From Diacronema lutheri (taxonomy: Eukaryota; Haptophyta; Pavlovophyceae; Pavlovales; Pavlovaceae), in NCBI GenBank assembly GCA_019448385.1, contig JAGTXO010000001.1:1054001-1118000 (forward strand): a stretch of DNA of 64,000 nucleotides. Direction: 5' to 3'. Positions 2,936 to 53,186 of this stretch are shown here, in pieces (the stretch's first letter is position 1; each line of letters opens with the position of its first letter). The position numbers and the translations under genes are program-made. The notes beneath the pieces are model-generated. The model was given only the letters and a program-made list of their open reading frames with translations, did not search any database and was not told where the DNA came from.

Positions 2936-3287
2936 GATGCCCGCGCGGACCAACCGCGGAATATGGCCGGCGAGCAGGCGCGGAGCACCCCTCCACCGTA
3001 GATTTCCCACAAAAGGACCGCGACGCGTAACGCATTTTGTACCGTTCGAGGAAAAAGCAATCGGGTTTAAGTCATCGGCGAGGCCCAGCGTGGAAGACAC
3101 GCGCAGCCTGCGCGCGGGAGAGGCGGCCGGCGAAGCATCAGGGCCCGTTGCGCTTCGCCCCAATGCACGCGCGCGGCGGTCACGGCCGGCTACGCGCGCC
3201 GCACATGCGCAACGAAGACCAGCACATGACGCGCTCGGTCTTTCCTTGGCGCGCTTTTCAGGTTTGAACGCCTTTTTGTACCAGGCG

Positions 3288-9200: not shown

Positions 9201-12200
9201 GCAGAGCTGTGGAGCGCTCTTGCGCGCCCATTTCAAACGCAGCGGCTACCGCTCGCCATGCTGCTTTCAAGCAGCATGGCGCCAACATGCGCCGACGGCG
9301 TGGCGGATGGCGCGCGACACGGCGGCGTCTCCAGCCGTGCGCACGCGCGCACGCACGGCTCGGCTCGGGTCGCGCCGTCGCGCGCGCTCGGCAGCTGGGC
9401 GGTGTGTTCCAACACGCCCGCCGCGCCGCGCGATCCGATCGGCGGCTGTCTCGCCGTCGCGCGCGTCCACCGCGCTGCTGGTGCGGAAGCGTTATTTGCC
9501 CTCCTCGCCCTGCCCCTCCTCGAGCCGCCCGCGCCTGCCTATGCGGACGAGCGGGGCGTCCGTGCCCACGGGCTACCCGGCGCGAAAAGCTGCGCGCACG
9601 CCGCCGAGAACGAACCCGTGGCAGCGCGCTCGCGACGCGCTTGTTCGCCGCTCGAGCCGCCGCCAGGGCGCGCGAACGCCGGCGTTGAGGCAAAGGGCGC
9701 GCGCGACTTGAGTGGCGCGGCCGCCGGCGGTGCGCGCACGCCGGGGACAAGCCCGGCTCGGCCACACGAGCACGACAGGCACATGACGCTCGCGAGCGAC
9801 GCGCGGCGCACCGGAGCGCCCTTGAGCCAGCGCTCCTTTCCGCGCTCATCGTCCGTCGCGCTCTCGGCTGCGGCGGCCATGGCGCCCTCGCCTCGTGAAC
9901 GCGCGGACGAGTGCGCAGCCTCGTTGCTTGGCGCGATTCGGGCCGCTGGGGACAATGTGCGCGCCGCGCACCGCGAGGCGGCTGCAAGCGGAGCCGGCGT
10001 AGAGCGCGCGCGCGCCGCTGCGGCCGCCGCGCGCGCTCTGTGGTGTGTGCGCACACGCGACTGTGCGGACGAGGGCACCATGGCCCGCGGTGCGCTGCAG
10101 CGAGGCGATGCGCGCAGCATCGGCGCTGCGGAGTGCGGCGACGGCAGCTGGGAGGAGGACGAAGATGCCTTTGATGATGGCTCCGACTTTGAGCACTCCT
10201 CCTACGGAGATGCCTCGTCTGACGACGACGAGCTGCACGACGCATCGGCGCAAACTGAGGCGCTGCCCGTCGATCAGCCCGCCAAGAGCGCGCCCATTGG
10301 GGCAGTGCTCGCGCTCGACGACACGACGGTCGCCGCCCCGCCAAGCCTCGGCGCAGCAGCGCGCGACGAGCGCGCCGCGCATGCCATCATCCCGCCCGAG
10401 CCCGGCAGCGCACGCGGCGCGCTTTCGTCCGTCGAGCAGTCGATCGCACCGGCCGTCGAGGCGCGCGCGGAGGCGAGCGCAGCAGAGCGGGCCGAGGCGG
10501 TGGCGGCGGTGCACGCGCACGCGGCGGCGGCTGCGCGCGCGCAAGTCGACGCCGCGATCGCGCGAGCGGCGACGGCAGCGGCTGCGGCCGAGAGGGTGCG
10601 CGCGTCGCTCAATGATGTGGGCGTGACGGCGAGCAGCTCGATTGCGCTGCTGCGCGCAGCGATGAACGAGTCGCAGAAGAGCGACGCGCAGCTGCGCAGC
10701 GAGGCGGCGCGACGGCGTGACGAGCGCCTCTCAGCCCGGGCCCTCTACTACCTCCCGCCCATTGCGACCGATAATGCGATGCGCGCGGTGCTCGTGCGAG
10801 GGGCAAGCGGCGGCTTGGAGTGCGGCGGCGCGCACGCGAGCCGTGCGCTGCGCGCGTGCGCTGACCTGGCGATGGACGCGGGGCGCACGTGGCTCTTCAA
10901 GCGGCCCGCGCTCTACGCGCGGCTCCTGCTCGCCGCGATGCACGAGGCGCTCTGCGCGCCGACGCACGAGCAGAGCGCGAGCGCAGCCGCGGTGCTCACC
11001 GCCCTCGCCCACGTCGCGTCCACGCCGGATGCGGGCGATGCACCCACGCCGGTTGCAGCCGGCGACACGCAGCCGCCGCCTCCGCCAGCATCTCTCGGGC
11101 GTGCGGCGCTCGCAGCTGCGGCGGCAGCCGACGCGCGCGTGCGCGCCATGCCGGGTGCGCGCGCGCTCGAGCACACGGCGCTGGACACGCTCGCGCGCGC
11201 AGCGATGGACCTCACGCGCACTTCGCCGCCCAGGGCAGGCGCGGCGGTGCGCGCCGCGCTCGAGCACACGGCGCTGCAGATGGCTCTTCTCCCCGCGCTC
11301 GCGCACGTGCGCGCCACGCGCGAACTCGAGACGGCGGCCGTGGACGAGGCGCACGCGCGCGCTGCCGGGCAGGGCGGCGACGAGGCAGGCGACGATCAGG
11401 ACGTCGGCGCGTGGGATGCGCGCGCCGCGCTCGCGCATGAGCTCGTTCGCGCGCTCGCGCGCGCGCGCCCGGCGCTCGACGCCGAGGCCGCGATGCGGCG
11501 CGGCGCGCGCGCGCGCGCTCTGCTGCAAGCGGCGCGCACGATCGTCGCGATGCTGCGCGCCGCGGCGGGCGGCGCGCCGCCGCGCGGCGAAGTGGTACGC
11601 AGCGCGCTGCGCTGGTGCACGTGCGCGCTCGAGAGCGCTCGCGAGCTGCTCGCGCTCTCGCAGCCGGCCGACGAGTCGCCCGCTGCGCCACGCGGCGAGC
11701 CCCTCACGTTCGCTGCGCCCGACGCGCGCGCGCTCCGCACGGCGCGCAGCGTTGCTCGCGCGCACCGGTGCGCGGTGCGTGCGTGCGTCGAGGTCTTCGA
11801 GCTGCGCGTGGCAGCTGCCCATGCCACCGCATCGGCGGCAGCGGCGCCGCGCGATGGCGAGGCGCGCGCCAAGCGCTGGCCGCTGCCCATTTGGGCGGCT
11901 GCGGCGCGGCTGCTTGCAGCCGCGCTCGAAGCGACGGGAGCGACTGCGCGCGCCTTGGCCCGCGTGGAGCGTGCTGCGGCGACCGAGTCGCCGCGCTCGC
12001 TCGCGCTCAAGCAGCTCGCCACCGATCGGCAGGCGATGGCTGCATGGATTGGTGGGCGCGTTGAGGCGCTCCACGCCGAGCTGGTGTGCGGCCTCGCGGC
12101 CGACGAGACGCTGCGCCCGGCCGTGCTCGCGCTGCGCAGCCTCTGGGCGTGGACGCCGCCGCTGCGCATTGCGGAGCCGTGCGCGCCTTCGCTCGCCGCT

Positions 12201-12860
12201 GCACTCCTCCTCGCGCGAGCGTGCGACGCCGTGCTACCCACCGCCACACATGAACATGCCCCAGCGCTGCGCGCCGTCGGCTGCGCGCGTCCGTCGGCTG
12301 AGCTGGCCGCCTACGCCGCGCGGTGCGCGGCGAGTCTCACAGGTGGCGGTGCGGCAAGGCCGCTGCGCGACGCCGCGCTCGGACTCGCTTCCGCCGACGG
12401 CAGCGCGTGCGACCCCGCGCGATGCGCCGGCGCATTCGCCATCTGCACGCGCCAGTGGGCGCGCTGCCTACTGCTCGTGTGCGCGCAGCCCGCGGCGGAT
12501 GCGGCGTTCGCGACTGTCGGCGCGCTCGTGCGCGCGGCGGACGAGCGCGAACACGACGGCGAAGGTGGTCGCGCGGCCGTCGTTGATCAGCTGTGCCATG
12601 CGGCGCTCGAGCTCTGCTGCGCGCTCCTCGAGGACGCTCACGGCAGCTCGGCGCACGTCCACGGCCTTGCCCAGCATGTCGCGACGGCGCCCGGCGCGCT
12701 CGCGCTGTGGCGCGCGCTGCGCGCGGCGCCCCCGCACGCCCAACGGCTGCCGGGGCGCACGGCCGTAGCGAGCGAGGTGACACGCCTCGTTCTGCAGGCC
12801 GACCAGCCAGGCCTGGCGGCCTTTGGCCACCCAAGCAGCGCGCTGCAGCGCATCGCGTGA
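3288..12860 (+). CDS. Giant helical-repeat protein, 3,190 aa; possible Furry/MOR2/TAO3 (cell morphogenesis) family
   Basis: An uninterrupted frame of 3,190 codons, read from the ATG at 3288. The frame is open further upstream, but there it runs antisense through the PP2C gene, so that part is rejected. The protein is Ala/Arg/Leu-rich and mostly amphipathic helix, as in HEAT/ARM solenoids. Residues about 290-400 and 550-570 resemble the Furry N-terminal domain: a block like LACALCAADESLFWKHF followed by RPDFFAASIALPCL, set in repeated helical pairs. Acidic disordered linkers occur near residues 1080-1100 and 2285-2325. Furry proteins are 2,000-3,500 residues, scaffold NDR kinases and control polarity. 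The length fits, but the similarity I can see is weak. Other HEAT-repeat giants are possible. That the frame is coding is fairly sure; the family is tentative. Confidence 0.55.
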   Translation: MAAPWRLRLPAVGAPVARPPVSTLVAEIVQSYRDDAVALEQAICDELALAGGARAARPADAAPPAQLVHTLRALGGAHSAATSAVLEAVLARHALDAIPRAERDVARNVVLSVSAVALLDCAAASAGTTAFVRASSGVALQALEQRALGRFVQLVHEPSDLAFHPLGAAGGRSEAAMLVLLLTTLSRFALRSVSRQLLQLVGACARGELALARRERELLCEAVGALCLEPASEAQLSVGPAADAQLDGSARSAPRSPRAAEQGRALPSASAATVGELVELLRRRRLGVLKHPLAHAACRLLLPLADLAPASRALAVEPLAELRDQPRTEGRPTDWRASAAWSSALGALADLSTAWLKKRKHRHVGARLLACALCAADESLFWKHFALAQDKLVETVVGVEDGVLRTELHVAMRALLGRYLRLVGGADDGGERAHVFALLGQLCVHAALRNHAQTALLLGVRLPSREQPLAAPPARAAAAGGGALAASTPPRARGGVGDSRAPPTPLSALRELGAPGGGASVWEWGWDGAARSVEGVEAELRARAALLAAVGEARPDFFAASIALPCLTSTIPPLDCAAVLLCALAALLGGASLEAEARRAARARALSFVPLLNSTGERWEHPRGARDESADSPARTRAADALRLWLPAIGRALGSAWRRLGLPADRAARGAGATPILPAWLALTVVAPARSTAAAAAAAAAATAAAGPHGATVRRFCLGALLQLVAHCWPAGVERALVCRLLAESALSDQPALADAASRAARAWLERGARARSAASALACALASVCEDADADGLLESDGAARHARALGALRELLEAVARRPALRLSARALAEASVAAVDGLTPRGAAQHEQAVGALHALLAMCAPRGPHGARSASHGPPLPAARMPAVESVVAPVGGAARSSRVSVDGYAYSATFHFEPALRQSLNSSENDSARANGATPLLNGRASVLGHARALLGSAPPHARGAACSEDVSWATCTPPSSPHLPPAKPAPATAGARSPPGSARATLRGLRRLLRAALGHAERARSADGLHDHGGGTTDALQPKACATAAHIVGYALGSCAVGSCAVGGARAGACGGASGADEGEDEGEGEEEGTDDGSHAGTRALDASPPVRAHAPCAEGVTDLAVQRALGHAAWRVAVGRYARLDDERARAVLSRSASSTSARAAPAPVAAAAAAERRRALRGLWAQRAAGVCALARVGCALGGVERGQLRAHVRSLLIAGVLARASSHAPGEAADGGWWVGDDDGDGDGDRTQAEGALAHIEPSAETLELLLAEGCELLAAQTQTHGVRRGDATASSPPPSAAALLAPAACALPNGGAALLSPAWHVAAAPTAGRAASARELEAASRMRARLLALAHLLGIALSALLRGAPAGERARAGASAHGASVAWSSGHARGHASADEEGEEAFEGTQRAGAEGAAPWPADEDGWCEPRPTTNDAAARSSLLGLTRADWRVNPGRAAGDALLAEPRVALLALRYAEAVSNLLAQYGDAAEIRAWAAERGTPAASAGWARPCGGGGGVVGRPGATCAVDATRLGLPALSASLSALVGSVLAPLARAHALRTAIAAGHTDDGVHAQLRRVLDGTWPRAWAVTVGECAAPARTAAPDASARAAAWATLPSREEALADAAWAMAELHAADHGYAPWAADAPVDSPGVRLSWHLLAERQSAHAPALARAGASLLVQLALHAPSEFAAALPAVVFGAQPTAAAAAFDALAISALAQRARERAAEALADTPRPSRSPQQGTPGGHVPLRVGVVQCALWAIARPFAAGTRALAVRICADVAGAPAPLGAAPTPAQLGALRRAARGGDDAPSGASGGASALAAALLVRAHPLGLAAELATEALSRVALWTGSVAFARRRDAALQAHGSLPSPRLACVLRTSPRGRARADGCGAALAAEGAAVAAALRGAGYVHVCVSAAAAAMAVRGEAPDSALVHALCHLAPAARGARNDDDEAGAIAERAAELWSALARPFQTQRLPLAMLLSSSMAPTCADGVADGARHGGVSSRAHARTHGSARVAPSRALGSWAVCSNTPAAPRDPIGGCLAVARVHRAAGAEALFALLALPLLEPPAPAYADERGVRAHGLPGAKSCAHAAENEPVAARSRRACSPLEPPPGRANAGVEAKGARDLSGAAAGGARTPGTSPARPHEHDRHMTLASDARRTGAPLSQRSFPRSSSVALSAAAAMAPSPRERADECAASLLGAIRAAGDNVRAAHREAAASGAGVERARAAAAAARALWCVRTRDCADEGTMARGALQRGDARSIGAAECGDGSWEEDEDAFDDGSDFEHSSYGDASSDDDELHDASAQTEALPVDQPAKSAPIGAVLALDDTTVAAPPSLGAAARDERAAHAIIPPEPGSARGALSSVEQSIAPAVEARAEASAAERAEAVAAVHAHAAAAARAQVDAAIARAATAAAAAERVRASLNDVGVTASSSIALLRAAMNESQKSDAQLRSEAARRRDERLSARALYYLPPIATDNAMRAVLVRGASGGLECGGAHASRALRACADLAMDAGRTWLFKRPALYARLLLAAMHEALCAPTHEQSASAAAVLTALAHVASTPDAGDAPTPVAAGDTQPPPPPASLGRAALAAAAAADARVRAMPGARALEHTALDTLARAAMDLTRTSPPRAGAAVRAALEHTALQMALLPALAHVRATRELETAAVDEAHARAAGQGGDEAGDDQDVGAWDARAALAHELVRALARARPALDAEAAMRRGARARALLQAARTIVAMLRAAAGGAPPRGEVVRSALRWCTCALESARELLALSQPADESPAAPRGEPLTFAAPDARALRTARSVARAHRCAVRACVEVFELRVAAAHATASAAAAPRDGEARAKRWPLPIWAAAARLLAAALEATGATARALARVERAAATESPRSLALKQLATDRQAMAAWIGGRVEALHAELVCGLAADETLRPAVLALRSLWAWTPPLRIAEPCAPSLAAALLLARACDAVLPTATHEHAPALRAVGCARPSAELAAYAARCAASLTGGGAARPLRDAALGLASADGSACDPARCAGAFAICTRQWARCLLLVCAQPAADAAFATVGALVRAADEREHDGEGGRAAVVDQLCHAALELCCALLEDAHGSSAHVHGLAQHVATAPGALALWRALRAAPPHAQRLPGRTAVASEVTRLVLQADQPGLAAFGHPSSALQRIA
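9254..9281. repeat. Perfect 13-bp inverted repeat inside the giant gene
   Basis: Arms at 9254-9266 and 9269-9281 are exact reverse complements around a 2-base loop. They lie in coding sequence for a stretch containing LLSSSMA. Confidence 0.9.
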
Positions 12861-18479: not shown

Positions 18480-18550
18480 GTAAGTCGCCCCTCCCACGCG
18501 CCCTTGGCCGCGTGAGCCCGTCCCCTTCTTCTGGAGGGTTGTGCCCGCAG
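18480..18550 (+). other. Candidate 5' UTR intron of the VTE6-like gene
   Basis: A consensus donor GTAAGT at 18480 and an acceptor GCCCGCAG ending at 18550 bracket 71 bases just before the ATG at 18568. If used, the transcript would begin within the opposite-strand ThrRS 5' region, so the two 5' ends would overlap. It may be coincidental. Confidence 0.35.
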
Positions 18551-18567
18551 ATTACAAGTCGCCCGCC

Positions 18568-19692
18568 ATGTCGGGTGTCCGGGCGTTCTCGCCGGCGATG
18601 AACGCGGTGCTGGTCCTTGCGAGCGTGCCCGGTACGCTGGCGCTCGGTCCTGCGAGCTTGTGGGCCAGCCGTGGCGTACTCCGTCCCGTGCTGTCACGAC
18701 CCGTCAGTGCAGTACGGATGGCGCACGCGCACGCGCTCGAGCCGGTCGAACGCCGTTTTCGTCTCCGCTCGTACGGGTCGCCTCGCGCTGCTCGCGCCAC
18801 GCGCGGGGCGCGCGCCGTGCGCGCTCTGGCAGGCGCGGCGGGTGCAAGCCCGCTTGGCGTCAATTTCATTGCCGCGTGGCTCCTCAAGGCCGTGGACGCG
18901 CTCAGCACGCCCTCGCTGCCGGCGGCTCTCGCCCTCAACACGCTGCTCGCGACGTGGGGGATGCTCAAGGGCCAGCAGATGCTGACGAACGCCGGCCTGC
19001 TCCACGCATGGATTCTCGGCGTCGTGCTCTGGTCGACGCTTGGCCCGCGCGGCTGGTGGCTCTGCGTGCTTTACCTCGCATGTGGCTCCGCCGTGACGAA
19101 GGTGGGCAAATCGCGCAAGGAGGCGCTCGGCATCGCGGAGGGGCGTGGCGGCAGGCGCGGCCCGGAGAACGTATGGGGCTCTGCGGCGGCGGCGACCATC
19201 TGCGCCCTCGGGTGCCGCTTCTACCCAGCGCTCAGCCTGGCGCTCATGGGCCAGCGCGGAGGCGCTGTCGCGTGGGGTCTCGAGGTCGCGTACGTTGCCT
19301 CGCTCGCCACCAAGCTGTCCGACACGTGTGCCTCCGAGATCGGCAAGGCGTACGGCCGCACCACCTATCTGATCACCACGTTCAAGAAAGTGCCCAAGGG
19401 CACTGAGGGCGCGGTCAGCCTCGAGGGTACGCTGGCCGGTGTCGTCGGCTCGATCGTGATCGCGGTGGCTGCATGGTGCGTCGGGATGGTGAGCGCATTC
19501 GACGGGCTGATCGCACTCTTCGCCGCCTTCGTCGCGACCAATTGCGAGAGCGTGATTGGCGCGACCGCGCAGGGCAAGGTGAAGTGGTTGACCAACGAGG
19601 TCGTCAACTTTTTTAACACGGCGATCGGGGCCGTGCTCGCCTTTGCGTTGTGGCGCGCGTCGCTCCAGTTGCGCGGAATCGTCGTCCTGTGA
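18568..19692 (+). CDS. DUF92/VTE6-like membrane protein, probable phytyl-phosphate kinase
   Basis: A 374-residue polytopic protein of the TMEM19/DUF92 family. The plant and cyanobacterial members (VTE6) phosphorylate phytyl phosphate to phytyl diphosphate for tocopherol synthesis. Family blocks seen are AWILGVVLWSTLGPRGWW, GSAVTKVGKSRKEALGIAEG, RGPENVWGSAAAATICA, LATKLSDTCASEIGKAYG and FKKVPKGTEGAVSLEGTLAG. The C-terminal half has several hydrophobic spans. The N-terminus has a hydrophobic segment after a second ATG at 18598 (MNAVLVLASVPGTLALG) followed by an Arg-rich stretch, a plausible bipartite plastid leader. Either ATG could be used; the frame is also open to a GTG at 18541. The gene is head-to-head with the ThrRS gene. 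Confidence 0.85.
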   Translation: MSGVRAFSPAMNAVLVLASVPGTLALGPASLWASRGVLRPVLSRPVSAVRMAHAHALEPVERRFRLRSYGSPRAARATRGARAVRALAGAAGASPLGVNFIAAWLLKAVDALSTPSLPAALALNTLLATWGMLKGQQMLTNAGLLHAWILGVVLWSTLGPRGWWLCVLYLACGSAVTKVGKSRKEALGIAEGRGGRRGPENVWGSAAAATICALGCRFYPALSLALMGQRGGAVAWGLEVAYVASLATKLSDTCASEIGKAYGRTTYLITTFKKVPKGTEGAVSLEGTLAGVVGSIVIAVAAWCVGMVSAFDGLIALFAAFVATNCESVIGATAQGKVKWLTNEVVNFFNTAIGAVLAFALWRASLQLRGIVVL

Positions 19693-19770: not shown

Positions 19771-22700
19771 TCACGGCCTGCGCAGCAAGGCCGGCGCGAG
19801 CTTGAGCACAGCCGACGTCGGGCCGCGCTCGAACTCCGGCGCAGCGGCTGCACGCGCCAAACTCGACGGGGTGCGTTGCCTGCCGAGCAGCTCCGAGCGC
19901 CGGTGGCCGCCCATGTGCAGCGCATCGAGCGGCGGGCGCTTGGCCGGCGACGCCTTGAGCGCAGCCAGCCCTGCGCTGAGAGCTCGTCGGTGTGCATCCA
20001 AGGACTGGGCGTGCCCGGCGGATGCGGGCGTGCGCTGATCGGCGATGGGCACGCGGCTCTCGCGCCGCGGCGTCGCAACGTTCGATGGCGTCAGCACGGT
20101 CGGGGCAGGAGCTGCCACAGCCGGCGGCTCGTCGAAGCCTGTCGCGCTGGCCACATCGACCGTCTGCACGGGCAGCGCAAACTGGCACGCGCGTAGCCGC
20201 GTGTTCGCCACCTCGAGCTCCGTTTCGAGGCGGCTGACCTCCGCTGCGAGGAGCCGCACGTGGCCCTCCGCCTCGTCAAGCAGCGGCTCGACAAGGCGGA
20301 GCGCGTCTGCCTCTGTGGAAAGCTCGCGTAGCTGTGCCTCGAGCTCCCCGCACTTCGCATGCGCAGCGGCCAGGTTCGCGCCGAGCGCAACGGCCGACGC
20401 GTGCCGCGCGGCCGCAGCCTCCTGCATGGCGCCACCGCGCGCAACGTCGGGACGAAGGGCGCGCGGCGCAGCGGCCAAAATGAGAGTGGGCGCGCGGTGA
20501 GAGGGCAGAGGACCCGCGGCACGTGGCACAAGTGCGTGCAGCAAGCCAACTCACCTCCGCCCTTGTGCGCGCGCTTTGCGCCTCGGCACGCACGGCCTCA
20601 GCCTCGACGCGCGCCGCGTGCGCGTCAGCGGTTGCTCGGCCGAGCTCGGCTTTGAGCGCGGCCGACTCCTCAAAAGCAGCGTCGAGCTGTGAGCGGAGCT
20701 CCTGCAGCGCCTCCGCAGACGCAGCGCTCGGGCGCACAGCGGGCGGGCTCAGCGACGGCGAGGTGGCCGACCAACCGAGCGCGCAGAGCACGCGCTCATA
20801 ATCGCCCGCCAGTCCGGTGGGCGGCTCAGCTGCGTGCGTGACGTCCGCTTGCTTGCTGCGCTCGAGCGCGATCGCGACGGCCGTCCTACCGCGCGAGTCG
20901 GTTGGCAGCTTAGACGCACCCGCCACGAGCAGCACGCGCACACACTGCTCCCAGCCCGCGCCGGCCGCAAGCATGAGAGGCGTGCAGCCCTCCTGAGCGG
21001 ACGAGGTGGCGCGCGCGCGCGCGCGCGCGCAAGCCATTGGTGAGAACGGTGCAAGCGGCTGCGAAACGTGCGGCGATCGTGGCGCGCGGTGAGCGCGCGT
21101 GCGCGCGCGCACCGCGTTGGTCACATCCACGTCCGTTACGATCTCAGCCACGCGCTGCAAGACGGTTGCGAGGCCCAGGTGCGCACTCCAGTGGAGCGCT
21201 GTGTTACCGCGATCATCCGCGAGCGTCGCCCGCGCGCCCTTGCCGAGAGCGGCGGCCACCGCGACATCGTCGCCGCACTCGGCGGCGAGGAGGAGCTCAG
21301 CCTCCAAATCGCGCACCGTCGCCGGCGCAGAAGCATGCGCGGCGGCTGCTGCAGGAGCGCAATGTGGCACAGGCGCAGAGCAGCGGCTTGGCGCAGCTGC
21401 TTGCGCCGGAGGCGGGGCAGCCGCACCAAACAGGCCGCTGCCACCCGCCGCGTCAGGAATCCCGCCGAGGCGTGTCGCACCAGCCGGCCCGCCACCAAAC
21501 AGAGGCGCCGTCGGCTTGAGCACGGCATTCGCAGCGCCGAAGAGCGGCGCGGTGGGCGCGCCGAACAGCGAGCTAGGGACTGCGCCGCCCGCTTGGCCGA
21601 AGCTGAAAGCGGACGCGGTCGGCCCGGGAGACGGGCGATGCGCGCTGCTCGCCCCCAAGCCAGCAGCCAAGCTTTGCGCTGGTGATGCAAGGTTCGGCCC
21701 GCTGCCCGAAGCGGTCGCGGCCTGCGGCGCACCGAAGGACGCGGCGATCGAGAATGGCGACGCGCCGGAGACCGCAGCCAAGCCGAACGAGAAGACGGAA
21801 GTCGAATCACCCGTAGCCATTGAGCCCTTGCCCGCCGTCTGTGAGAAGAGCGGCTGGCCGAAGCTCGGCGGCGCCGCAGCCGACACAGCAGGTGCGCAAG
21901 ATGTGGCGGCTGCAGGCGCACGCAGTTGTGATGTGCCCTTCAAAGGTTGCGCTGCCGACGCGAATAGCTCGATGCACTTTCGCAGACGGCTGGCCTCGTC
22001 CTTGTCGTCGACCTTGTCGAGCTTCTCCTGTGCCACTTGCAGCGCGCTCTTCCCCTTGTTGGTCGTGACACCCAAGCTCGCGCCCGCTCGCAGCAGAGCG
22101 CCAACGCAGTCATCCCATCCGCTCGACGCGGCGAGCACGAGAGCCGTCGCGCCAATCTTGTTCTGCTCGTCAAGCGGCGCACCGGCCTCGACGAGCGACT
22201 GCACGTCGTCGCACCGCCCCTCTTTCGCCGCCCAGTGCAGCGCGGTGTACTGCTTGTCGTCGGTGGCGCGCACGTCCGCGCCAGCTTTGATCGCCTTGAC
22301 GAGCGCCTCGTGGTCGCCCAGCTCTGCTGCGGAGAGCAAGTCCTCCTCCGCCTTGCCTTTGATCACCGGACCGGATCGCGCCGCCACGAGCGCCACAGCG
22401 GGGGGCGCCGCAACAGGCGCCGCCGCGACGGGCGCACAGGGTGAGGGCAGGACAGCCTTTGCGCCGCCCGGCGGCGTCGCTGTGCCCACGCCCGCTTGCG
22501 TCGGCTTGGCTCCCTGTGTGAGCGCACCGGTGGAGACAGGCGCGGCGCCAAAGCCGCACCCCGCAAAAGGCAAGGCTGCCGCGCTTAGAGGCGAAGAAGC
22601 CATGCCAAAGCTGGAGCCGCCAAGCACGGGCGCTGCTGGCTTGGGAGCCACGCCTGCACCGAGCGAGGCTGTGCCGCCAAACGTGCCGCCGGCGCCGAAG

Positions 22701-25700
22701 GGCGAGGCTGTGGAAGGCGAAGAAGCCATGCCAAAGCCGGAGCTGCCAAACACGGGCGCTGCTGGCTTGGGAGCCACGCCTGCACCGAGCGAGGCTGTGC
22801 CGCCAAACGTGCCGCCAGCGCCGAAGGGCGAGGCTGTGGAAGGCGAAGAAGCCATGCCAAAGCCGGAGCCGCTAAACACGGGCGCTGCTGGCTTGGGAGC
22901 CACGCCTGCACCGAGCGAGGCTGTGCCGCCAAACGTGCCGCCAGCGCCGAAGGGCGAGGCTGTGGAAGGAGAAGAAGCCATGCCAAAGCCGGAGCCGCTA
23001 AACACGGGCGCTGCTGGCTTGGGAGTCACGCCTGCACCGAGCGAGGCTGTGCCGCCAAACGTGCCGCCAGCGCCGAAGGGCGAGGCTGTGGAAGGCGAAG
23101 AAGCCATGCCAAAGCCGGAGCCGCCAAACACGGGCGCTGCTGGCTTGGGAGCCACGCCTGCACCGAGCGAGGCTGTGCCGCCAAACGTGCCGCCAGCGCC
23201 GAAGGGCGAGGCTGTGGTTGCAGCCCCAAAAAGGGGCGCGGCTGGCAGCGACGCTAGCCCGCCACCGCGCAGCGAGGCAGAGCCAAGAGCAGGAGCTGCG
23301 GTCGAGGTCAGCGTTTGCGGCGTCGCGCCGCTTTTCGGAGACTGCGGCACAGCCGGCTTGGCTGCAGCCGCACTGCTGCCGGTGAAAGCGCCGGTGCCGC
23401 GTCCTCCAAAGCTCGGCAGCACAGGTGTGCTCGCTGGCGAGCTCGAAGGGGGCGGCGCGCCGAAAAGAGCGGGAGTCTTGTTGCCGCCAAAGTTGAAGGT
23501 GAACTTGCCACCGGACGGCGCAAACGGCGCCGACACAGGCGGGACGTAGGTACCCTGCTGCTCGCGCGAGCCCACCTTGGCTTTTGCCGCGTCGAGGCCG
23601 AAGGTGAACGGCTGAGCGGGCTTGACCGCGCTGCTGCCGGTGCCAGTCAAAGTCCCAGCAGCCCCTTGCCCTAGCGCGAGGCTGCTGGAGGCTGTGCTGC
23701 CCACGGTCGACGATTTGGCCACCGCGGATGACGATGCCACAGCCTGTGGACTGCCCACCGGCTTGTGCGAAGAGAAGAGCTCGATGCACTTTCGCAGACG
23801 GCTGACCTCGTCCTTGTCATCGACCTTGTCGAGCTTCTCCTGTGCCACTTGCAGCGCGCTCTTCCCCTTGTTGGTCGTGACACCCAAGCTCGCGCCCGCT
23901 CGCAGCAGAGCGCCAACGCAGTCGTCCCATCCGCTCGACGCGGCGAGCACGAGAGCCGTCGCGCCAATCTTGTTCTGCTCGTCAAGCGGCGCACCGGCCT
24001 CGACGAGCGATTGCACGTCGTCGCACCGCCCCTCTTTCGCCGCCCAGTGCAGCGCGGTGTACTGCTTGTCGTCGGTGGCGCGCACGTCCGCGCCAGCTTT
24101 GATCGCCTTGACGAGCGCCTCGTGGTCGCCCAGCTCTGCTGCGGAGAGCAAGTCCTCCTCCGCCTTGCCTTTGATCACCGGACCGGATCGCGCCGCCACG
24201 AGCGCCACAGCGGGGGGCGCCGCGACAGGCGCCGCCGCGACGGGCGCACAGGGTGAGGGCAGGACGGCCTTTGCGCCGCCCGGCGGCGTCGCTGTGCCCA
24301 CGCCCGCTTGCGTCGGCTTGGCTCCCTGTGTGAGCGCACCGGTGGAGACAGGCGCGGCGCCAAAGCCGCACCCCGCAAAAGGCAAGGCTGCCGCGCTTAG
24401 AGGCGAAGAAGCCATGCCACAGCTGGAGCCGCCAAACACGGGCGCTGCTGGCTTGGAAGCCACGCCTGCACCGAGTGAGGCTGTGCCGCCAAACGTGCCG
24501 CCAGCGCCGAAGGGCGAGGCTGTGGAAGGCGAAGAAGCCATGCCAAAGCCGGAGCTGCCAAACACGGGCGCTGCTGGCTTGGGAGCCACGCCTGCACCGA
24601 GCGAGGCTGTGCCGCCAGCGCCGAAGGGCGAGGCTGTGGTTGCAGCCCCAAAAAGGGGCGCGGCTGGCAGCGACGCTAGCCCGCCACCGCGCAGCGAGGC
24701 AGAGCCAAGAGTAGGTGCTGCGGTCGAAGTCAGCGTTTGCGGCGTCGCGCCGCTGTTCGGAGACTGCGGCACAGCCGGCTTGGCTGCAGCCGCACTGCTG
24801 CTGGTGAAAGCGCCGGTGCCGCGTCCTCCAAAGCTCGGCAGCACAGGTGTGCTCGCTGGCGAGCTCGAAGGGGGCGGCGCGCCGAAAAGAGCGGGAGTCT
24901 TGTTGCCGCCAAAGTTGAAGGTGAACTTGCCACCGGACGGCACAAACGGCGCCGACACAGGCGGGACGTAGGTGCCCTGCTGCTCGCGCGAGCCCACCTT
25001 GGCTTTTGCCGCGTCGAGGCCGAAGGTGAACGGCTGAGCGGGCTTGACCGCGCTGCTGCCGGTGCCAGTCAAAGTCCCAGCAGCCCCTTGCCCTAGCGCG
25101 AGGCTGCTGGACGCTGTGCTGCCCACGGTTGACGATTTGGCCACCGCGGATGACGATGCCACAGCCTGTGGACTGCCCACCGGCTTGTGCGAAGAGAAGA
25201 GCTCGATGCACTTTCGCAGACGGCTGACCTCGTCCTTGTCATCGACCTTGTCGAGCTTCTCCTGTGCCACTTGCAGCGCGCTCTTCCCCTTGTTGGTCGT
25301 GACACCCAAGCTCGCGCCCGCTCGCAGCAGAGCGCCAACGCAGTCATCCCATCCGCTCGACGCGGCGAGCACGAGAGCCGTCGCGCCAATCTTGTTCTGC
25401 TCGTCAAGCGGCGCACCGGCCTCGACGAGCGACTGCACGTCGTCGCACCGCCCCTCTTTCGCCGCCCAGTGCAGCGCGGTGTACTGCTTGTCGTCGGTGG
25501 CGCGCACGTCCGCGCCAGCTTTGATCGCCTTGACGAGCGCCTCGTGGTCGCCCAGCTCTGCTGCGGAGAGCAAGTCCTCCTCCGCCTTGCCTTTGATCAC
25601 CGGACCGGATCGCGCCGCCACGAGCGCCACAGCGGGGGGCGCTGCGACAGGCGCCGCCGCGACGGGCGCACAGGGTGAGGGCAGGACGGCCTTTGCGCCG

Positions 25701-28700
25701 CCCGGCGGCGTCGCTGTGCCCACGCCCGCTTGCGTCGGCTTGGCTCCCTGTGTGAGCGCACCGGTGGAGACAGGCGCGGCGCCAAAGCCGCACCCCGCAA
25801 AAGGCAAGGCTGCCGCGCTTAGAGGCGAAGAAGCCATGCCACAGCTGGAGCCGCCAAACACGGGCGCTGCTGGCTTGGGAGCCACGCCTGCACCGAGCGA
25901 GGCTGTGCCGCCAAATGTGCCGCCAGCGCCAAAGGGCAAGGCTGTGGCTGCAGCCCCCAAAAGGGGCGCGGCTGGCAGCGACGCTAGCTCGCCACCGAGC
26001 AGCGAGGCAGAGCCAGTAGCAGGAGCTGCGGTCGAGGTCGGCGTCCGCTTGAAGGCGACGGCCGTGCCGAAGCCGGCGAACGTGGCAGTAGGCACGCCTG
26101 CGGCCAGGCTGCCAAAGCTCACCTGCTGGGCGGCTGGTGCCACAAATGCCGGTTGAGCAGCGCATGCCGGCTTCAAAGCCGAGCCGTCAGCCTTGGTTGC
26201 GCCGAGACCGCCTGCGCACGAGCCCGGAGCACCAGACGGAGTCGCCGTCCGGGCGGAGAACACGCCCGCGCACGAGGACCCAAAACCAGGATGTGACGTG
26301 AATATCGGAGCGCTGCGAACGGCAGCAAGAGCTGGTGGCGCTGCGCCCGAGAATGTGGGTTCGAAACGCCCGCCCATCGTGGGCTTCTCAGCATCCGAGT
26401 CGTCGCCTGAGCTTGTCGCCGAGTTTGCTGACGCAGCGCTGTACTCGTCGTCGGTACGAGGCGGTCGCAAGCCCGCTTGCGCATGCAGCGCGGGCACGCC
26501 GTGATCACGCACAGCTGTGCAAAGCTCACCTTCACCGTCGCCGTCGCCGTCGCCCTCATCATCATCGTCAAAGTCCTCCTCAAGCGCCTTGAGCGCGCCC
26601 TGCGTGCCCACGCTGCCCAGCGCGGCGCGCAGCCGCGCTGCCGCCTCCTCCTCCACCTCGCACCCCTCCACGTTGAGCGAGCGCAGCGACGGCCAGCCCT
26701 TCACCGCGGCGCACAGCGCGTCGAGCGCCTTGCCGCCCATCTCGTTGTACGACAGGTCGACCTCCTGCAGACCCTTGGCACGGCCAAGCGCCACGATCAC
26801 GCGCACAAGCGCGCCGCCGAGCGACGTGTCGCCCAGAAGCACGACGCGCAGGCTCTCGCCGCATCCTCCCGAAGACTCGAGCGCAGACGCGAGCGCAGCG
26901 CCGCCGTCCGTGCCGAGCGTCGTCTCCGTCAGCTCGAGGCGCTCGAGCGCGGAGAGACTGCGCACGCTCGCCACGAGCGCCGCCGCCTCGCCCGGCGCGA
27001 TGCGCTGCTGCGTCAGCACGAGCTCGCGCAGAGAGTCGCCGCATTCGGCAATCGCCGCGCCGAGCGCGAGCGCCGCGCCATCGCCTAGCGTGTCGCGCTC
27101 GTCCTCGTCCATCGGCGCGCCGCGCAGCTCGAGCGCGCCCGCCGCCGGCGGGCCACACAGCGCGGCCGCAATCTCGCCGACCGCACCTTTGCCGAGCAGC
27201 TGCACGTCCACGCGCTTCACGCGCGCGGCCGGTGCGGCGGCGCTGGACGCAGTTGCGACGGCCGCAAACGCAGGCGCAGCGGCCTCCTTCTCCACCGACG
27301 CTGCACCCGCCCCGACCGACAAACCGCCCAATGGACCGGTCGCCGCAGCCGAGCTGACCGCTGGCGTGGCGACAGACGCCAGTTGACCGCCAAATGAGAA
27401 GCCGCCGCTCGACGGCGCAGCAGTAGACGAGCCGAAGGAGAAGCCACCTGCCTGTGTTGCCGCCGTGCCAGCCGCCGTTGGCTGGGGGCTCGCGCCAAAT
27501 GAGAAGCCGCCCAACGCTGCGCCCGCTGCGGGCGGTGCATCCGCAGCTGTGCTCGCCATTGCGCCAAATGAGAAGCCGCCCAACGCTGCGCCCGCTGCGG
27601 GCGGTGCATCCGCAGCTGTGCTCGCCATTGCGCCAAATGAGAAGCCGCTCCCGCCACCACCGCCACCTCCGCCGCCAAATTTGGCGGCCAGCTCGCTCTT
27701 GGACGGCGTGCGTGTCGTGTCCACCCACCCGCACGCCACGCACGCAACGGCCTCCTTGGCGTTGCGCACGCTGCACGTCGGGCATTCCCACTTGCCAGCC
27801 GCATCGGACGCTCCACCGAGCGCTGTGCCAGCCCAGCTCGACGACGGAGCCGCGCCCTTCTCGCTCGCCGCCGCCTTGCCCGTCAAGCTGCCCGTCAAGA
27901 CTGCGCCTCCCGCCTTGGCGCTCGTTCCTCCACTCGGCGCGCTCATGCTGGCGCTGGCGTTTCCGCCGTCTTCTTCGCCGTCGCCGTCGCCCTCATCATC
28001 ATCGTCAAAGTCCTCCTCAAGCGCCTTGAGCGCGCCCTGCGTGCCCACGCTGCCCAGCGCGGCGCGCAGCCGCGCTGCCGCCTCCTCCTCCACCTCGCAC
28101 CCCTCCACGTTGAGCGAGCGCAGCGACGGCCAGCCCTTCACCGCGGCGCACAGCGCGTCGAGCGCCTTGCCGCCCATCTCGTTGTACGACAGGTCGACCT
28201 CCTGCAGACCCTCGGCACGGCCAAGCGCCACGATCACGCGCACAAGCGCGACGCCGAGCGACGTGTCGCCCAGAAGCACGACGCGCAGGCTCTCGCCGCA
28301 TCCTCCCGAAGACTCGAGCGCAGACGCGAGCGCACCGCCGCCGTCCGTGCCGAGCGTTGTCTCCGTCAGCTCGAGGCGCTCGAGCGCGGAGAGACTGCGC
28401 ACGCTCGCCACGAGCGCCGCCACCTCGCCCGGCGCGATGCGCTGCTGCGTCAGCACGAGCTCGCGCAGAGAGTCGCCACATTCGGCAATCGCCGCGCCGA
28501 GCGCGAGCGCCGCGCCATCGCCTAGTGTGTCGCGCTCGTCCTCGTCCATCGGCGCGCCGCGCAGCTCGAGCGCGCCCGCCGCCGGCGGGCCACACAGCGC
28601 GGCCGCAATCTCGCCGACCGCACCTTTGCCGAGCAGCTGCACGTCCACGCGCTTCACGCGCGCGGCCGGTGCGGCGGCGCTGGACGCAGTTGCGACGGCC

Positions 28701-30133
28701 GCAAACGCAGGCGCAGCGGCCTCCTTCTCCACCGACGCTGCACCCGCCCCGACCGACAAACCGCCCAATGGACCGGTCGCCGCAGCCGAGCTGACCGCTG
28801 GCGTGGCGACAGACGCCAGTTGACCGCCAAATGAGAAGCCGCCGCTCGACGGCGCAGCAGTAGACGAGCCGAAGGAGAAGCCACCTGCCTGTGTTGCCGC
28901 CGTGCCAGCCGCCGTTGGCTGGGGGCTCGCGCCAAATGAGAAGCCGCCCAACGCTGCGCCCGCTGCGGGCGGTGCATCCGCAGCTGTGCTCGCCATTGCG
29001 CCAAATGAGAAGCCGCCCAACGCTGCGCCCGCTGCGGGCGGTGCATCCGCAGCTGTGCTCGCCATTGCGCCAAATGAGAAGCCGCTCCCGCCACCACCGC
29101 CACCTCCGCCGCCAAATTTGGCGGCCAGCTCGCTCTTGGACGGCGTGCGTGTCGTGTCCACCCACCCGCACGCCACGCACGCAACGGCCTCCTTGGCGTT
29201 GCGCACGCTGCACGTCGGGCATTCCCACTTGCCAGCCGCATCGGACGCTCCACCGAGCGCTGTGCCAGCCCAGCTCGACGACGGAGCCGCGCCCTTCTCG
29301 CTCGCCGCCGCCTTGCCCGCCAAGCTGCCCGTCACGACTGCGCCTCCCGCCTTGGCGCTCGTTCCTCCACTCGGCGCGCTCATGCTGGCGCTGGCGTTTC
29401 CGCCGTCTTCTTCGCCGTCGCCGTCGCCCTCATCATCATCGTCAAAGTCCTCCTCAAGCGCCTTGAGCGCGCCCTGCGTGCCCACGCTGCCCAGAGCGGC
29501 GCGCAGCCGATCGGCCGCCTCCTCCTCCACCTCGCACCCCTCCACGTTGAGCGAGCGCAGCGACGGCCAGCCCTTCACAGCGGCGCACAGCGCGTCGAGC
29601 GCCTTGCCGCCCATCTCGTTGTACGACAGGTCGACCTCCTGCAGACCCTCGGCACGGCCAAGCGCCACGATCACGCGCACAAGCGCGACGCCGAGCGACG
29701 TGTCGCCCAGAAGCACGACGCGCAGGCTCTCGCCGCATCCGCCCGAAGACTCGAGCGCAGACGCGAGCGCAGCGCCGCCGTCCGTGCCGAGCGTCGTCTC
29801 CGTCAGCTCGAGGCGCTCGAGCGCGGAGAGACTGCGCACGCTCGCCACGAGCGCCGCCACCTCGCCCGGCGCGATGCGCTGCTGCGTCAGCACGAGCTCG
29901 CGCAGAGAGTCGCCACATTCGGCAATCGCCGCGCCGAGCGCGAGCGCCGCGCCATCGCCTAGCGTGTCGCGCTCGTCCTCGTCCATCGGCGCGCCGCGCA
30001 GCTCGAGCGCGCCCGCCGCCGGCGGGCCACACAGCGCGGCCGCAATCTCGCCGACCGCACCTTTGCCGAGCAGCTGCACGTCCGCGCGCCTCACGCGCTG
30101 GCCGGCGGACGCCGCGCCCTCACACGCGCTCAT
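19771..30133 (-). CDS. Giant composite nucleoporin-like protein: RanGAP-like LRRs, RanBP2 zinc fingers, FG repeats, ankyrin repeats, coiled coil
   Basis: About 3,370 residues from the ATG at 30133. Inferred exons are 21113-30133, 20555-20992 and 19771-20421; a further in-frame intron at 26407-26529 is possible. Residues about 15-225 are leucine-rich repeats ending in an acidic tail (LRSLNVEGCEVEEEAADRL, then EEDFDDDDEGDGDGEE), very like the RanGAP C-terminal repeats. This block recurs near 494 and 973. RanBP2-type fingers (WECPTCSVRNAKEAVACVACGW) lie near 300-325 and 779-804, each followed by five GFSFG motifs. The middle has PVFGG/SPFGAG/ALFGAP repeats and three near-identical ankyrin blocks (TALHWAAKEGRCDDV). 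A fourth, divergent ankyrin block (TALHWSAHLGLATV) and a coiled coil end the protein. FxFG repeats and these fingers typify nuclear pore proteins that bind transport receptors and Ran. A pore or Ran-cycle role is inferred. RanGAP catalysis is unproven, since the repeat block is shorter than a full RanGAP. Confidence 0.75.
20422..20554 (-). other. Intron near the 3' end of the nucleoporin-like gene
   Basis: The donor GTGAGT at 20554 and acceptor ATGCAG at 20422 give a 133-bp phase-0 intron. Splicing joins two coiled-coil halves (…SARTRAE to EAAAARHASAV…). Reading through shifts into a low-quality frame. Confidence 0.75.
20993..21112 (-). other. Stop-free 120-bp intron inside the fourth ankyrin block
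   Basis: The donor GTGCGC at 21112 and acceptor GCTCAG at 20993 remove 40 codons of Arg/Ala-rich sequence that interrupt an ankyrin repeat. Splicing joins DVDVTNA to EGCTPLMLAAGAGW, restoring the ankyrin spacing. The length is a multiple of three, so the intron does not break the frame. Confidence 0.75.
21960..26035 (-). repeat. Ankyrin/FG module duplicated three times (spacing 1,422 and 1,812 bp)
   Basis: Three almost identical ankyrin blocks and their FG flanks recur with offsets of 1,422 and 1,812 bp. The extra 390 bp in one copy is three more 126-bp FG units plus 12 bp missing from the other. Scattered substitutions separate the copies. Confidence 0.9.
22599..23228 (-). repeat. Five tandem 126-bp units encoding 42-residue FG repeats
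   Basis: Unit starts at 22599, 22725, 22851, 22977 and 23103 give an exact 126-bp period. Each unit encodes one SPFGAG, one GTFGG and one PVFGG/PVFSG-type motif. The neighbouring copy of the module has two such units, one lacking 12 bp, and the next copy has one. Confidence 0.92.
26530..30083 (-). repeat. LRR/zinc-finger/FxFG module in tandem, 1,437-bp period
   Basis: Two full copies (about 28647-30083 and 27210-28646) and a third limited to the LRR part (about 26530-27209). The period of 1,437 bp equals 479 codons. Copies differ by a few substitutions, such as D or A before the last LRR helix. Within each full copy the GFSFGAMAST segment is itself doubled. Confidence 0.93.
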
Positions 30134-33979: not shown

Positions 33980-35323
33980 CTAGTAGTTTGAGGCGGATGC
34001 CGAGGCGGCGTCCTTGTAGTCCGCGACAATGTCCCAGCACTCGTCGACGTAACCCCGCATTGCCTCCTCGGAGCAACCATACCGCGCGTAGTGGTGCACG
34101 TACGCACCGGCGTCGAGCTGCGCACCGGCGCGGCGCAGCGTCCGGCTGAGCCACGCCCCGATCGACGTCCGGTTCGACACGAGCGAGAAGGACTGCTCGA
34201 CGCCGCGCGCGCCCTTTTGCGACGGCGCGAAACGCCAGTCGACGCTGAAGGGCGAGAGAGGCGACGCGCCGAGGGTGCGCTCGAGCCGGGTGCACGCCGA
34301 GCGCAGCTCGACGCTCGCGCCGCCCCGCACCAACGCACTCGCGCTGAGCGTGACCGCACGCTCGGTGCCTGAGTGAAAGCGTGGCAGCCGGCTGCACAGC
34401 TGTGCGCTCAACGCGTCCCAGCTTCCCGCCGGCAGTTTTCGGCTCAACGCTCGCGCGGTGGCCGCGCTTGCGCTGTCCGCGCGGCGCAGCTGCGCGCTTG
34501 GCGCTCGCGCGCCCGTGTGCGCGCGCACAGTCTGCGCGCCCGCAAGCTTCAAGCGCGGCAGCGGCGTAACCGTGCTCACCAGCTCGCCCAGGTCGGCTGC
34601 GCGCGGGTGGCCAGAGTCGCCGTCGAGCGGGAAGAGGGCACCGCCGAGCGCGCACGCGATCTGCTCGTTGAGGTCGCGCATCGAGGCATATGGGCGCGGG
34701 CGCGCGGGCGAGAGCTGCGAGCCCGCGCTCCGCTCCGCGTGCGCGTGCTGCTTCTCGTGGGCGCAGAGCAGCTGCGCGTTCTCAAAGAGCAGCGCCAGGT
34801 CCGCGTACTGCTGCACGTGCGCGAGCGCGAGTGCGGCGTTGTAATTCTGCAGCGCGCTGTCCCCCGTGTCAAAGGGGAGCACCGCCGCCGAGACAAGCCA
34901 CTGCCGCGGGTACGTGTCGCGCAGCTCGAGGAGCAGCCGCGAACCCACACCCGAGCCCGTGCCGCCCGCGAGGGAGTGCGCGACGACCGTGCCCGCCCAC
35001 CAATCCATCCGCTCAACCATCCGCCTGAAAGAGTCGGCGAGCGCGTCGAGCGAATCGGGCGCAAGCGCGGTGAAGCCCATCGCCCAATTGTTGGCCGAGC
35101 CGTGCGCGCTGAGCACGTGCGCTGCGTCGTCGCGCGCGACGCCGCGCAGGCTTCGCGAGACCGAGCGCACAACGCGCGGCTCGCAGTCGGCAAGCAGACA
35201 GTGCGCGCGACCATGCTCGTCGAACAGCCATGAGCGCGCGCTCGGGTGCTCCCGCGCGAGACTCCACAGCGGCTCTGCGATCTGGAGCCCGGCCTGTCCG
35301 ATATGCACAAAGGCCGTCGCCAT
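33980..35323 (-). CDS. TUBD1: Delta-tubulin
   Basis: A 447-residue tubulin, near the usual delta-tubulin length. Seen are HIGQAGLQIAEPLW (degenerate form of the tubulin GQCGNQ loop), SANNWAMGF, the nucleotide loop AGGTGSGVGS (GGTGSG at residues 120-125), LPFDTGDSALQNYNAALAL, DLNEQIACALGGALFPL, and a C-terminal AYVHHYARYGCSEEAMRGYVDE. The order and spacing match delta rather than alpha, beta, gamma or epsilon tubulins. Delta-tubulin is needed for triplet microtubules of basal bodies, so this organism should build flagella. An Ala/Arg/Ser-rich insert lies near residues 250-270. The ATG at 35323 is in the inner of two tandem copies of the 5' end. Confidence 0.9.
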   Translation of the reverse strand: MATAFVHIGQAGLQIAEPLWSLAREHPSARSWLFDEHGRAHCLLADCEPRVVRSVSRSLRGVARDDAAHVLSAHGSANNWAMGFTALAPDSLDALADSFRRMVERMDWWAGTVVAHSLAGGTGSGVGSRLLLELRDTYPRQWLVSAAVLPFDTGDSALQNYNAALALAHVQQYADLALLFENAQLLCAHEKQHAHAERSAGSQLSPARPRPYASMRDLNEQIACALGGALFPLDGDSGHPRAADLGELVSTVTPLPRLKLAGAQTVRAHTGARAPSAQLRRADSASAATARALSRKLPAGSWDALSAQLCSRLPRFHSGTERAVTLSASALVRGGASVELRSACTRLERTLGASPLSPFSVDWRFAPSQKGARGVEQSFSLVSNRTSIGAWLSRTLRRAGAQLDAGAYVHHYARYGCSEEAMRGYVDECWDIVADYKDAASASASNY

Positions 35324-35552
35324 ACATGCACGCTCCCGCGCAAAAATTTGCGCGGGTCGGGTCCCCGTCGATGAGGCGCGAGAGGCCCGTCCCGTGGCCG
35401 AACAGCCATGAGCGCGCGCTCGGGTGCTCCCGCGCGAGACTCCACAGCGGCTCTGCGATCTGGAGCCCGGCCTGTCCGATATGCACAAAGGCCGTCGCCA
35501 TACGTGCACGCTCCCGCGCAAAAATTTGCGCGGGTCGGGTCCCCGTCGATGA
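35222..35552. repeat. Tandem duplication of the delta-tubulin 5' end (153 bp at 178-bp spacing)
   Basis: 35222-35374 and 35400-35552 are identical except for one base (A/G, in the base block following the start codon complement). Each copy carries the start codon, the first 34 codons or so and about 50 bp of upstream sequence. The inner copy continues into the full gene. The outer copy has its own ATG at 35501 but leads into a wrong frame. Confidence 0.93.
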
Positions 35553-40940: not shown

Positions 40941-42673
<1,733 letters not shown>

Positions 42674-52600: not shown

Positions 52601-53186
52601 TCGCTCTCCGCGCTCGGCGACGTGTTCGCGTCGCTCACAGCCAAGGCGAGCCACGTCCCGTTCCGCAACTCAAAGCTGACCTACCTGATGGCGCCGTGCC
52701 TTTCCGGCGACGGCAAGACGCTCATGGTCGTCAACGTTGCCCCCGAGGTGCGCGCTGCGCGGCCATCCGCAGCACTGCCCTCTGGCGCGCGCCGCGCTCC
52801 GGCCAATTCGACGCTGCCCTGTGCTGAACTCAGCTCGTTGCGGCACGCGTCGCGACGCGCTCGCTCCGCCGCGCGACGCGCAGGCGGACAATGGGGTCGA
52901 GTCGCTCAGCTCGCTTCGCTTCGCGAGCCAGGTGAACGCGTGCGAGATCGGCCGACCAAAGCGCTCGGTGGTGCGTGCCGCCGTCACCAACCCGCTCGCC
53001 GAGCAGTCGCAGCCTGAGTCGCGCCGCACGTCCATCTCCTCGGTGCAGTCGGCATTGCCCGCACGCCCGGCCACCGCCCGCCCGGCGATAAGCGGCGCCC
53101 GCCAGCCACCGACGGCGGCGGCGGCGGTCGCTGCCGTGCGCAAGGCGGCGGCTTCCGGCGCGCGCCGGCCGGCAACCGCGAGGTGA
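49658..53186 (+). CDS. C-terminal motor kinesin (kinesin-14 family)
   Basis: A minus-end-directed microtubule motor of about 1,097 residues. Exons are 49658-52373, 52473-52747 and 52884-53186. The 99-bp first intron is stop-free and splits MLYLTG from TNPSVGHALHGAL. The 136-bp second intron joins VNVAPE to ADNGVESLSSLRFASQVN. Residues 1-180 are a disordered basic tail with ALAKENAGAP-type and RRRRSS segments, possibly microtubule-binding or nuclear localising. Residues about 190-685 are coiled coil. The kinesin-14 neck motif GNIRVFCRVRPP leads into the motor: AYGQTGSGKTFTMQG (P-loop, near 773), NSVSSRSHAVF (switch I) and HLVDLAGSERLSRS (switch II). The short C-terminal extension is Pro/Ala/Arg-rich. 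It probably acts in spindle organisation. Confidence 0.94.

Follow-up and report, generated by a model that had tools for sequence, protein, structure and literature searches.

The 64,000-nucleotide window analysed here, the whole stretch from position 1,054,001 to 1,118,000 of contig JAGTXO010000001.1, comes from Diacronema lutheri, a pavlovophyte haptophyte. On its minus strand lies a gene for a predicted protein of more than 3000 residues, referred to below as the giant protein, a candidate nucleoporin in which leucine-rich repeat (LRR) blocks with acidic tails, zinc fingers, stretches rich in phenylalanine-glycine (FG) repeats and ankyrin modules follow one another. Coordinates are those of the window unless a contig is named.

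Gene model and module order

The gene runs from an ATG at 30133 to a stop at 19771, the limits given in a preliminary description of this DNA. One minus-strand frame lacks a stop from 31039 to 20276, which leaves more than 3000 codons open, and the remaining two minus-strand frames hold dozens of stops each between 31600 and 19500; this evidence supports the earlier proposal of a single polypeptide. The stop at 19771 is reachable only through two short introns. Because eight combinations of nearby splice sites are workable, the exact ends of the introns adopted here (21112-20993 and 20554-20422) are predictions. Predicted intron 1 measures 120 bases and splits the fourth ankyrin module. In P0003, a metagenomic relative, reading continues past the corresponding ankyrin position into sequence that opens with a GT codon; some 129 bases further on, an AG is directly followed by EGCTPLML, readable in another frame, as in D. 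lutheri. This fits an intron at the corresponding position. The accessible text on the published D. lutheri assembly describes it as PacBio-based, with 73% GC, a subread N50 of 23 kb and a BUSCO completeness of 80.8% (PMC8379373); long reads of that size could therefore span the repeat array. Our own searches of the genome covered 43,492,796 bases in 103 contigs. The features of the gene are as follows.

30133..19771, minus strand: whole giant-protein gene; three predicted exons (30133-21113, 20992-20555 and 20421-19771), 3369 residues
29456..30094, minus strand: LRR block 1, residues 14-226 (Pfam LRR_6, PDB matches, AlphaFold2 models)
29399..29455, minus strand: acidic tail 1 (Asp/Glu at 12 of 16 residues)
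29165..29236, minus strand: RanBP2/Nup153-class zinc finger 1, residues 300-323 (PF00641 over cut-off; best PDB match RanBP2, 1.9e-21)
28697..29143, minus strand: FSFG-rich stretch 1 (6 FG, 5 FSFG)
28019..28657, minus strand: LRR block 2, acidic tail after it (genome search and acidic-run count)
27728..27799, minus strand: RanBP2/Nup153-class zinc finger 2 (PF00641 over cut-off)
27260..27706, minus strand: FSFG-rich stretch 2 (6 FG and 5 FSFG, counted jointly for zinc finger 2 and this stretch)
26582..27220, minus strand: LRR block 3, acidic tail after it and no zinc finger next (repeat ends at 26538)
25583..26524, minus strand: FG stretch 3, joining the LRR and ankyrin halves (7 FG)
25184..25582, minus strand: ankyrin module 1 (ankyrin module comparison)
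24161..25183, minus strand: FG stretch 4 (12 FG)
23762..24160, minus strand: ankyrin module 2 (ankyrin module comparison)
22349..23761, minus strand: FG stretch 5 (23 FG), with a 126-bp unit repeated five times in tandem at 22589-23217
21950..22348, minus strand: ankyrin module 3 (ankyrin module comparison)
21311..21949, minus strand: FG stretch 6 (8 FG, 2 FSFG)
20759..21310, minus strand: ankyrin module 4, diverged, interrupted by predicted intron 1 at 21112-20993 (module end adjusted accordingly)
19771..20758, minus strand: Ala/Glu/Leu-rich coil-like stretch and C-terminal tail, with the predicted intron 20554-20422 inside (composition only)

The first part of the protein is built from a unit of LRR, acidic tail, zinc finger and FSFG stretch that occurs twice and is followed by a further LRR with its acidic tail. 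The second part consists of three FG-plus-ankyrin units, another FG stretch, the diverged fourth ankyrin module and the coil-like end. Pfam assigns Ank_2 (3e-47), the RanBP zinc finger (3e-13, in two stretches) and LRR_6 (5e-12), in agreement with the ankyrin modules of the preliminary description; its LRR block of about 200 residues is found as three blocks of about 213. Between 21400 and 20560, ankyrin models alone appear among the Pfam matches with an E-value below 0.08. An ARTD15_N match on the LRR (Pfam 3e-6), which weakens to 0.065 when a single LRR unit is used, is taken as spurious.

The repeated parts are nearly identical at the DNA level. The LRR-to-FSFG units are spaced by 1437 bp (479 residues) and are 98-99% identical, the ankyrin units are 97-98% identical, and the five copies of the 126-bp FG unit stand at 97%. 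LRR units 1 and 2 differ in 10 of 228 codons, six of them silently, while the zinc finger/FG parts differ in two of 251 codons and ankyrin modules 1 and 2 in two of 132. Judged by these copies, either the amplification is recent or conversion keeps them alike.

FG repeats, zinc fingers and metagenomic relatives

The giant protein contains 62 FG dipeptides against a mean of 14.9 (maximum 26) in 500 shuffled versions, 16 FxFG against a mean of 0.5, and 12 FSFG against a mean of 0.0 (maximum 1). The FxFG/FG repeats named in the preliminary description are thus far beyond the shuffled level, and 10 of the 12 FSFG lie within the two zinc-finger units. In a comparison of a zinc finger with the PDB, RanBP2/Nup358/Nup153 entries fill the first 12 of 40 rows, the best at 1.9e-21; by this ranking the fingers, previously called Ran-binding in type, belong to the RanBP2/Nup153 class. 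Nup153 fingers of this class can bind RanGDP, according to the accessible text of PMC13242641. By analogy, the fingers of the giant protein may do the same. Elsewhere in the genome, a frame at C43:185216-185866 has four zinc fingers of the RanBP type but of another flavour (NVFASKNSCFRC), set in Gly-rich sequence and presumably of the RNA-binding type.

Relatives were collected by three protein searches, each with about 8,000 candidates scored within a length window. The closest, P0003, is 70% identical over the matched stretch and has an ankyrin module, FG repeats and a diverged fourth ankyrin module. P0004-P0011 are eight proteins of similar length and Pfam list, of which four sequences were read and P0004 was scanned. 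P0004 is a Nup214: a propeller profile combining it with a D. lutheri gene on contig C69 matches the Nup214 N-terminal domain at 9e-26, and the first non-Nup214 row of that search stands at 0.0095. It also carries GLFG repeats, further FG repeats (Nucleoporin_FG 3e-24) and the ankyrin module of the giant protein, with 47% identity (E-value 4e-36, 129 bits), against 2e-13 and 54 bits for the next ankyrin that the same query finds elsewhere in the D. lutheri genome. By sequence, the ankyrin module is therefore common to the giant protein and a recognised, Nup214-type nucleoporin.

P0021 and P0022 run through ankyrin, FG (FxF repeats), LRR, acidic tail, FSFG, ankyrin, FKBP, ankyrin, cyclophilin and FG, and the P0021 LRR is 36% identical to that of the giant protein and co-linear with it through the acidic tail. 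Because these two proteins combine LRR, FG and ankyrin parts, their presence in one polypeptide is not an artefact of the locus. In P0023, ankyrin modules alternate with FG-bearing stretches before a coil-like end. Across the ankyrin modules of the giant protein, P0003, P0004, P0021, P0022 and P0023, diverged modules excluded, 47 of 132 columns are invariant, and these six proteins have 0.95-2.07 FG per 100 residues, compared with 0.12 in P0024 and 0.46 in P0002. Such likenesses suggest that composite pore proteins with these modules form a family; to call it a haptophyte family would be a guess. P0012-P0020 and P0024-P0027 were set aside as generic ankyrin proteins on their Pfam lists (P0012 and P0024 were read). 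Scans of viral contigs with the LRR/zinc-finger unit and the ankyrin module gave no relatives, one scan of genome contigs gave two bacterial ankyrin loci, and a search for homologues of the LRR, confined to lengths of about 264-840 residues, returned one protein, a generic LRR.

The Nup214-like gene of D. lutheri lies on contig C69 at about 1316851-1320831, minus strand (L033 1670-5650, reverse strand), and comprises a propeller and an FG-rich stretch; the own-genome ankyrin search listed no ankyrin match there. On contig C4, a 414-residue frame at 707090-708331 (L057 4591-5832) holds ankyrin repeats, a cyclophilin and three FG. It recalls the way P0021/P0022 pair ankyrin with cyclophilin; we do not include it in the family.

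The LRR blocks and RanGAP

PDB matches, the family profile and structure comparison all place the LRR domain in the RanGAP/ribonuclease-inhibitor class. About seven repeats were counted by eye in a block, and the LRR domain of RanGAP has 11. The three units score 446-485 bits in the own-genome LRR search and the next of the 11 matches scores 25.5, so that no close paralogue appears. In two PDB searches, ribonuclease inhibitors or other LRR proteins rank above RanGAP (row 5 of 46 and row 8 of 41), and the LRR family profile places designed LRRs and ribonuclease inhibitors above RanGAP1 (row 13 of 69).

A RanGAP profile was applied to five family LRRs (the three units, P0021 and P0022), three RanGAP references and 20 control LRR proteins (19 from the D. 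lutheri genome and P0002), a non-random set drawn from fetched loci, with some frames cut by locus ends. Over the best stretch, the units score 63.5-68.9 bits, P0021 and P0022 48.9 and 42.7, and the controls 15.9-83.4; the best unit is beaten by four of the 20 controls on this measure and by 17 over the whole protein. The ends of the alignments tell in the other direction. Best stretches of the family reach at least position 344 of the 356-position profile in all five cases, and no control passes 331. Directly after the LRR, an acidic run is present in all five family members (9-12 of 16 residues), the three units with their previously described tails among them, and in all three RanGAPs (13-15 of 16), but in none of the 20 controls (at most 7 of 16). 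The preliminary description had also proposed comparison with RanGAP by HHpred or structure. Here hhalign gives 98.8%, with LRR positions 55-215 on RanGAP 185-342. Comparison of AlphaFold2 models leaves RanGAP and other LRRs tied, with a register that depends on the model. Against a tail-free RanGAP profile the units still align to positions 165-322 of 342, but scanning with the final 62 residues gives an ambiguous result.

The conserved N-terminal block of RanGAP has no counterpart in the family. The motif SD-x(1-3)-GR, which includes R74 of Rna1p, and the motif [LI]SDNA-x-G each occur in all three RanGAPs, in none of the five family LRRs and in none of the 20 controls, and an alignment gap in the family LRRs lies opposite this block. 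R86 (TQQRIAPGE) is kept in P0021/P0022 (NHRFESAE), and MAFFT sets it opposite the later GRNRLE of RanGAP, not R74. The preliminary description had failed to locate the catalytic arginine; the R74 motif is indeed missing, but asking for a catalytic arginine somewhat misses the point because RanGAP, according to the available part of PMC12246119, works without an arginine finger. The proposed RanGAP-like character of the blocks is accordingly half supported by sequence: the acidic tail and the profile end speak for it, while generic LRR proteins score equally well or better and the SD-GR motif is absent. A better match to ribonuclease inhibitors, named earlier as a ground for doubt, is found by PDB rank; the tail and the profile end point the other way. 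GTPase-activating (GAP) activity of the blocks appears unlikely.

A separate full RanGAP, for which the preliminary description had proposed a search, was sought with Rna1p (four matches, the best on contig C29) and with a stretch of Arabidopsis RanGAP (57 matches), all being LRR proteins. Six of the 57 loci were inspected: the best-scoring one and the five in which the match begins ahead of query position 80 (the conserved GR is near position 73). In the sequence read at these loci and at C29, neither a canonical RanGAP nor its N-terminal block was recognised, and the strict SD-x(1-3)-GR motif is missing from all 20 controls, among which these loci are counted. A locus on C13 with VVGRKDGPP near its first repeats was rejected, its closest PDB rows being LRRC34 at 2.9e-32 and RanGAP1 only at 4.7e-7. 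The missing canonical RanGAP is weak evidence because the assembly is 80.8% complete by BUSCO and genes were searched exon by exon; absence of another RanGAP is suggestive only. In a survey that included Emiliania huxleyi, the accessible text reports stronger RanGAP candidates in opisthokonts only (PMC3032688). The genome yielded a single RanBP1 domain, which sits on contig C14 and not with the giant-protein gene. To judge by the 57 LRR-query matches, this genome, though small, is rich in LRR proteins of the ribonuclease-inhibitor type.

Likely role, alternatives and neighbouring genes

The giant protein is probably a very large FG nucleoporin, specific to its lineage and working in the manner of RanBP2/Nup358, a reading to which we give a probability of roughly 0.6. 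The identity of its modules, the open frame, the FG enrichment, the zinc-finger class and the existence of relatives are directly established, and from there we infer location, partners and function. The FG and FSFG stretches would bind transport receptors and the zinc fingers would dock RanGDP at the pore, and the LRR-acidic and ankyrin modules that separate the FG stretches would serve as folded platforms for binding. For the LRR modules, binding of Ran or of a Ran-bound receptor is likelier than action as a GAP. Because P0004, a Nup214 of another organism, has the same ankyrin module fused into it, this module probably brings the giant protein close to Nup214, at the cytoplasmic face. Each molecule would have gained binding sites through tandem duplication in recent times or through conversion between its copies. 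Several points weigh against this reading. Pfam lists no RanBP1-type domain, cyclophilin or propeller in the giant protein, and Nucleoporin_FG has no match to it (E-value up to 0.01); the own-genome search with that model matched contig C73 only, and so missed the Nup214-like gene on C69 as well. FG-like motifs also occur in proteins outside the pore.

A basket-side, Nup153-like FG nucleoporin on the nuclear face would share the zinc-finger class and the FSFG repeats, and it draws on the Nup153 fingers among the best PDB matches, on the zinc-finger units that hold most of the FSFG and on the coil-like C-terminal end. We regard it as unlikely, given that the ankyrin module is common to Nup214 and that the prolyl-isomerase-bearing P0021/P0022 recall RanBP2, both cytoplasmic in animals. 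The LRR-acidic block might be a RanGAP that has shortened and diverged, which would make the giant protein the cell's own pore-tethered RanGAP; we hold this to be improbable. An equally improbable extension takes the alga to be without a free RanGAP: the three LRR-acidic modules would be shortened RanGAPs beside RanGDP-binding zinc fingers, in an independently evolved RanBP2 analogue to which relatives in another lineage add two prolyl isomerases.

Two adjoining genes, one of LRR, zinc finger and FG and one of FG and ankyrin parts, might share an open frame by chance, and the end of LRR unit 3 at 26538 is directly followed by GGTGAG, which resembles a splice donor. The length of the stop-free frame and the single polypeptides of P0021/P0022, in which LRR, acidic tail, FSFG and ankyrin are joined, make this distinctly improbable. 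A scaffold outside the nucleus, its FG stretches being of low complexity, has the faintest prospects: LRR and ankyrin are generic binding modules and Nucleoporin_FG gives no match, but the RanBP2-class fingers, the FSFG count and the ankyrin module shared with Nup214 all speak for the pore.

The favoured reading, a nucleoporin that works like RanBP2, stops short of identity with any known protein. Like RanBP2/Nup358 of animals, the giant protein is a giant FG protein with RanBP-class zinc fingers, and P0021/P0022 add a cyclophilin; RanBP2 itself has zinc fingers, FG repeats and a cyclophilin domain (title of Wu et al. 1995). It is not classed as RanBP2 because it has no listed RanBP1-type domains and no C-terminal cyclophilin, with LRR and ankyrin modules instead, and because the sole RanBP1 domain found sits on another contig. 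It shares the zinc-finger class and FxFG repeats with Nup153, which, unlike the giant protein, is not known to have LRR or ankyrin domains. Nup214/Nup159 resembles it through P0004, whose ankyrin module stands beside FG repeats, but the giant protein starts with LRR block 1, lacks a propeller and is encoded apart from the Nup214-like gene, so it is not classed there. RanGAP (Rna1p, RanGAP1) has the same LRR domain passing directly into an acidic tail; the giant protein is not placed with it because the SD-GR motif is absent and its LRRs are no closer in sequence than other LRR families. Trypanosome TbNup149 is described in the accessible text of PMC4758718 as an FG nucleoporin with three near-identical zinc-finger/FG repeats, its zinc fingers being putative. 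Near-identical repeats of this kind are found in the giant protein as well, whereas that text mentions no LRR or ankyrin modules in TbNup149 and does not state the zinc-finger type; it also describes Nup358/RanBP2 as metazoan-specific.

Among the matches listed in a literature search, with subscription papers outside its scope, no title or opening of an abstract dealt with an FG nucleoporin that bears ankyrin modules or LRRs like those of RanGAP, or with a fusion of RanGAP LRRs and zinc fingers, which agrees with the earlier remark that this order of parts is undescribed. The metagenomic relatives P0003, P0004, P0021/P0022 and P0023, including their FKBP/cyclophilin and Nup214 links, are new here. 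If the reading holds, a family outside metazoans in which LRR and ankyrin modules are combined with FG repeats, zinc fingers of the RanBP2 class and, in the relatives, a cyclophilin would amount to an independent solution for gathering Ran and receptors at the pore. Through the giant protein, the question of where D. lutheri keeps its RanGAP function becomes concretely testable, and the ankyrin module may mark FG nucleoporins in environmental data.

Several other features lie in the window. A DUF92 membrane protein frame (18541-19692, plus strand; Pfam 1e-58) adjoins the giant-protein gene, and a RIO kinase-like frame (40941-42512, minus strand; Pfam 2e-50) is about 10 kb away from it. An open frame at 49658-53017 on the plus strand has a C-terminal kinesin motor (Pfam 6e-91). 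A 3381-residue open frame at 2715-12860, plus strand, consists mostly of sequence with 76-79% GC, has no Pfam match and is perhaps a by-product of GC content. At 35221-35552, a 178-bp unit is repeated in tandem in about two copies that are 99% alike, and a run of 28 T follows shortly after.

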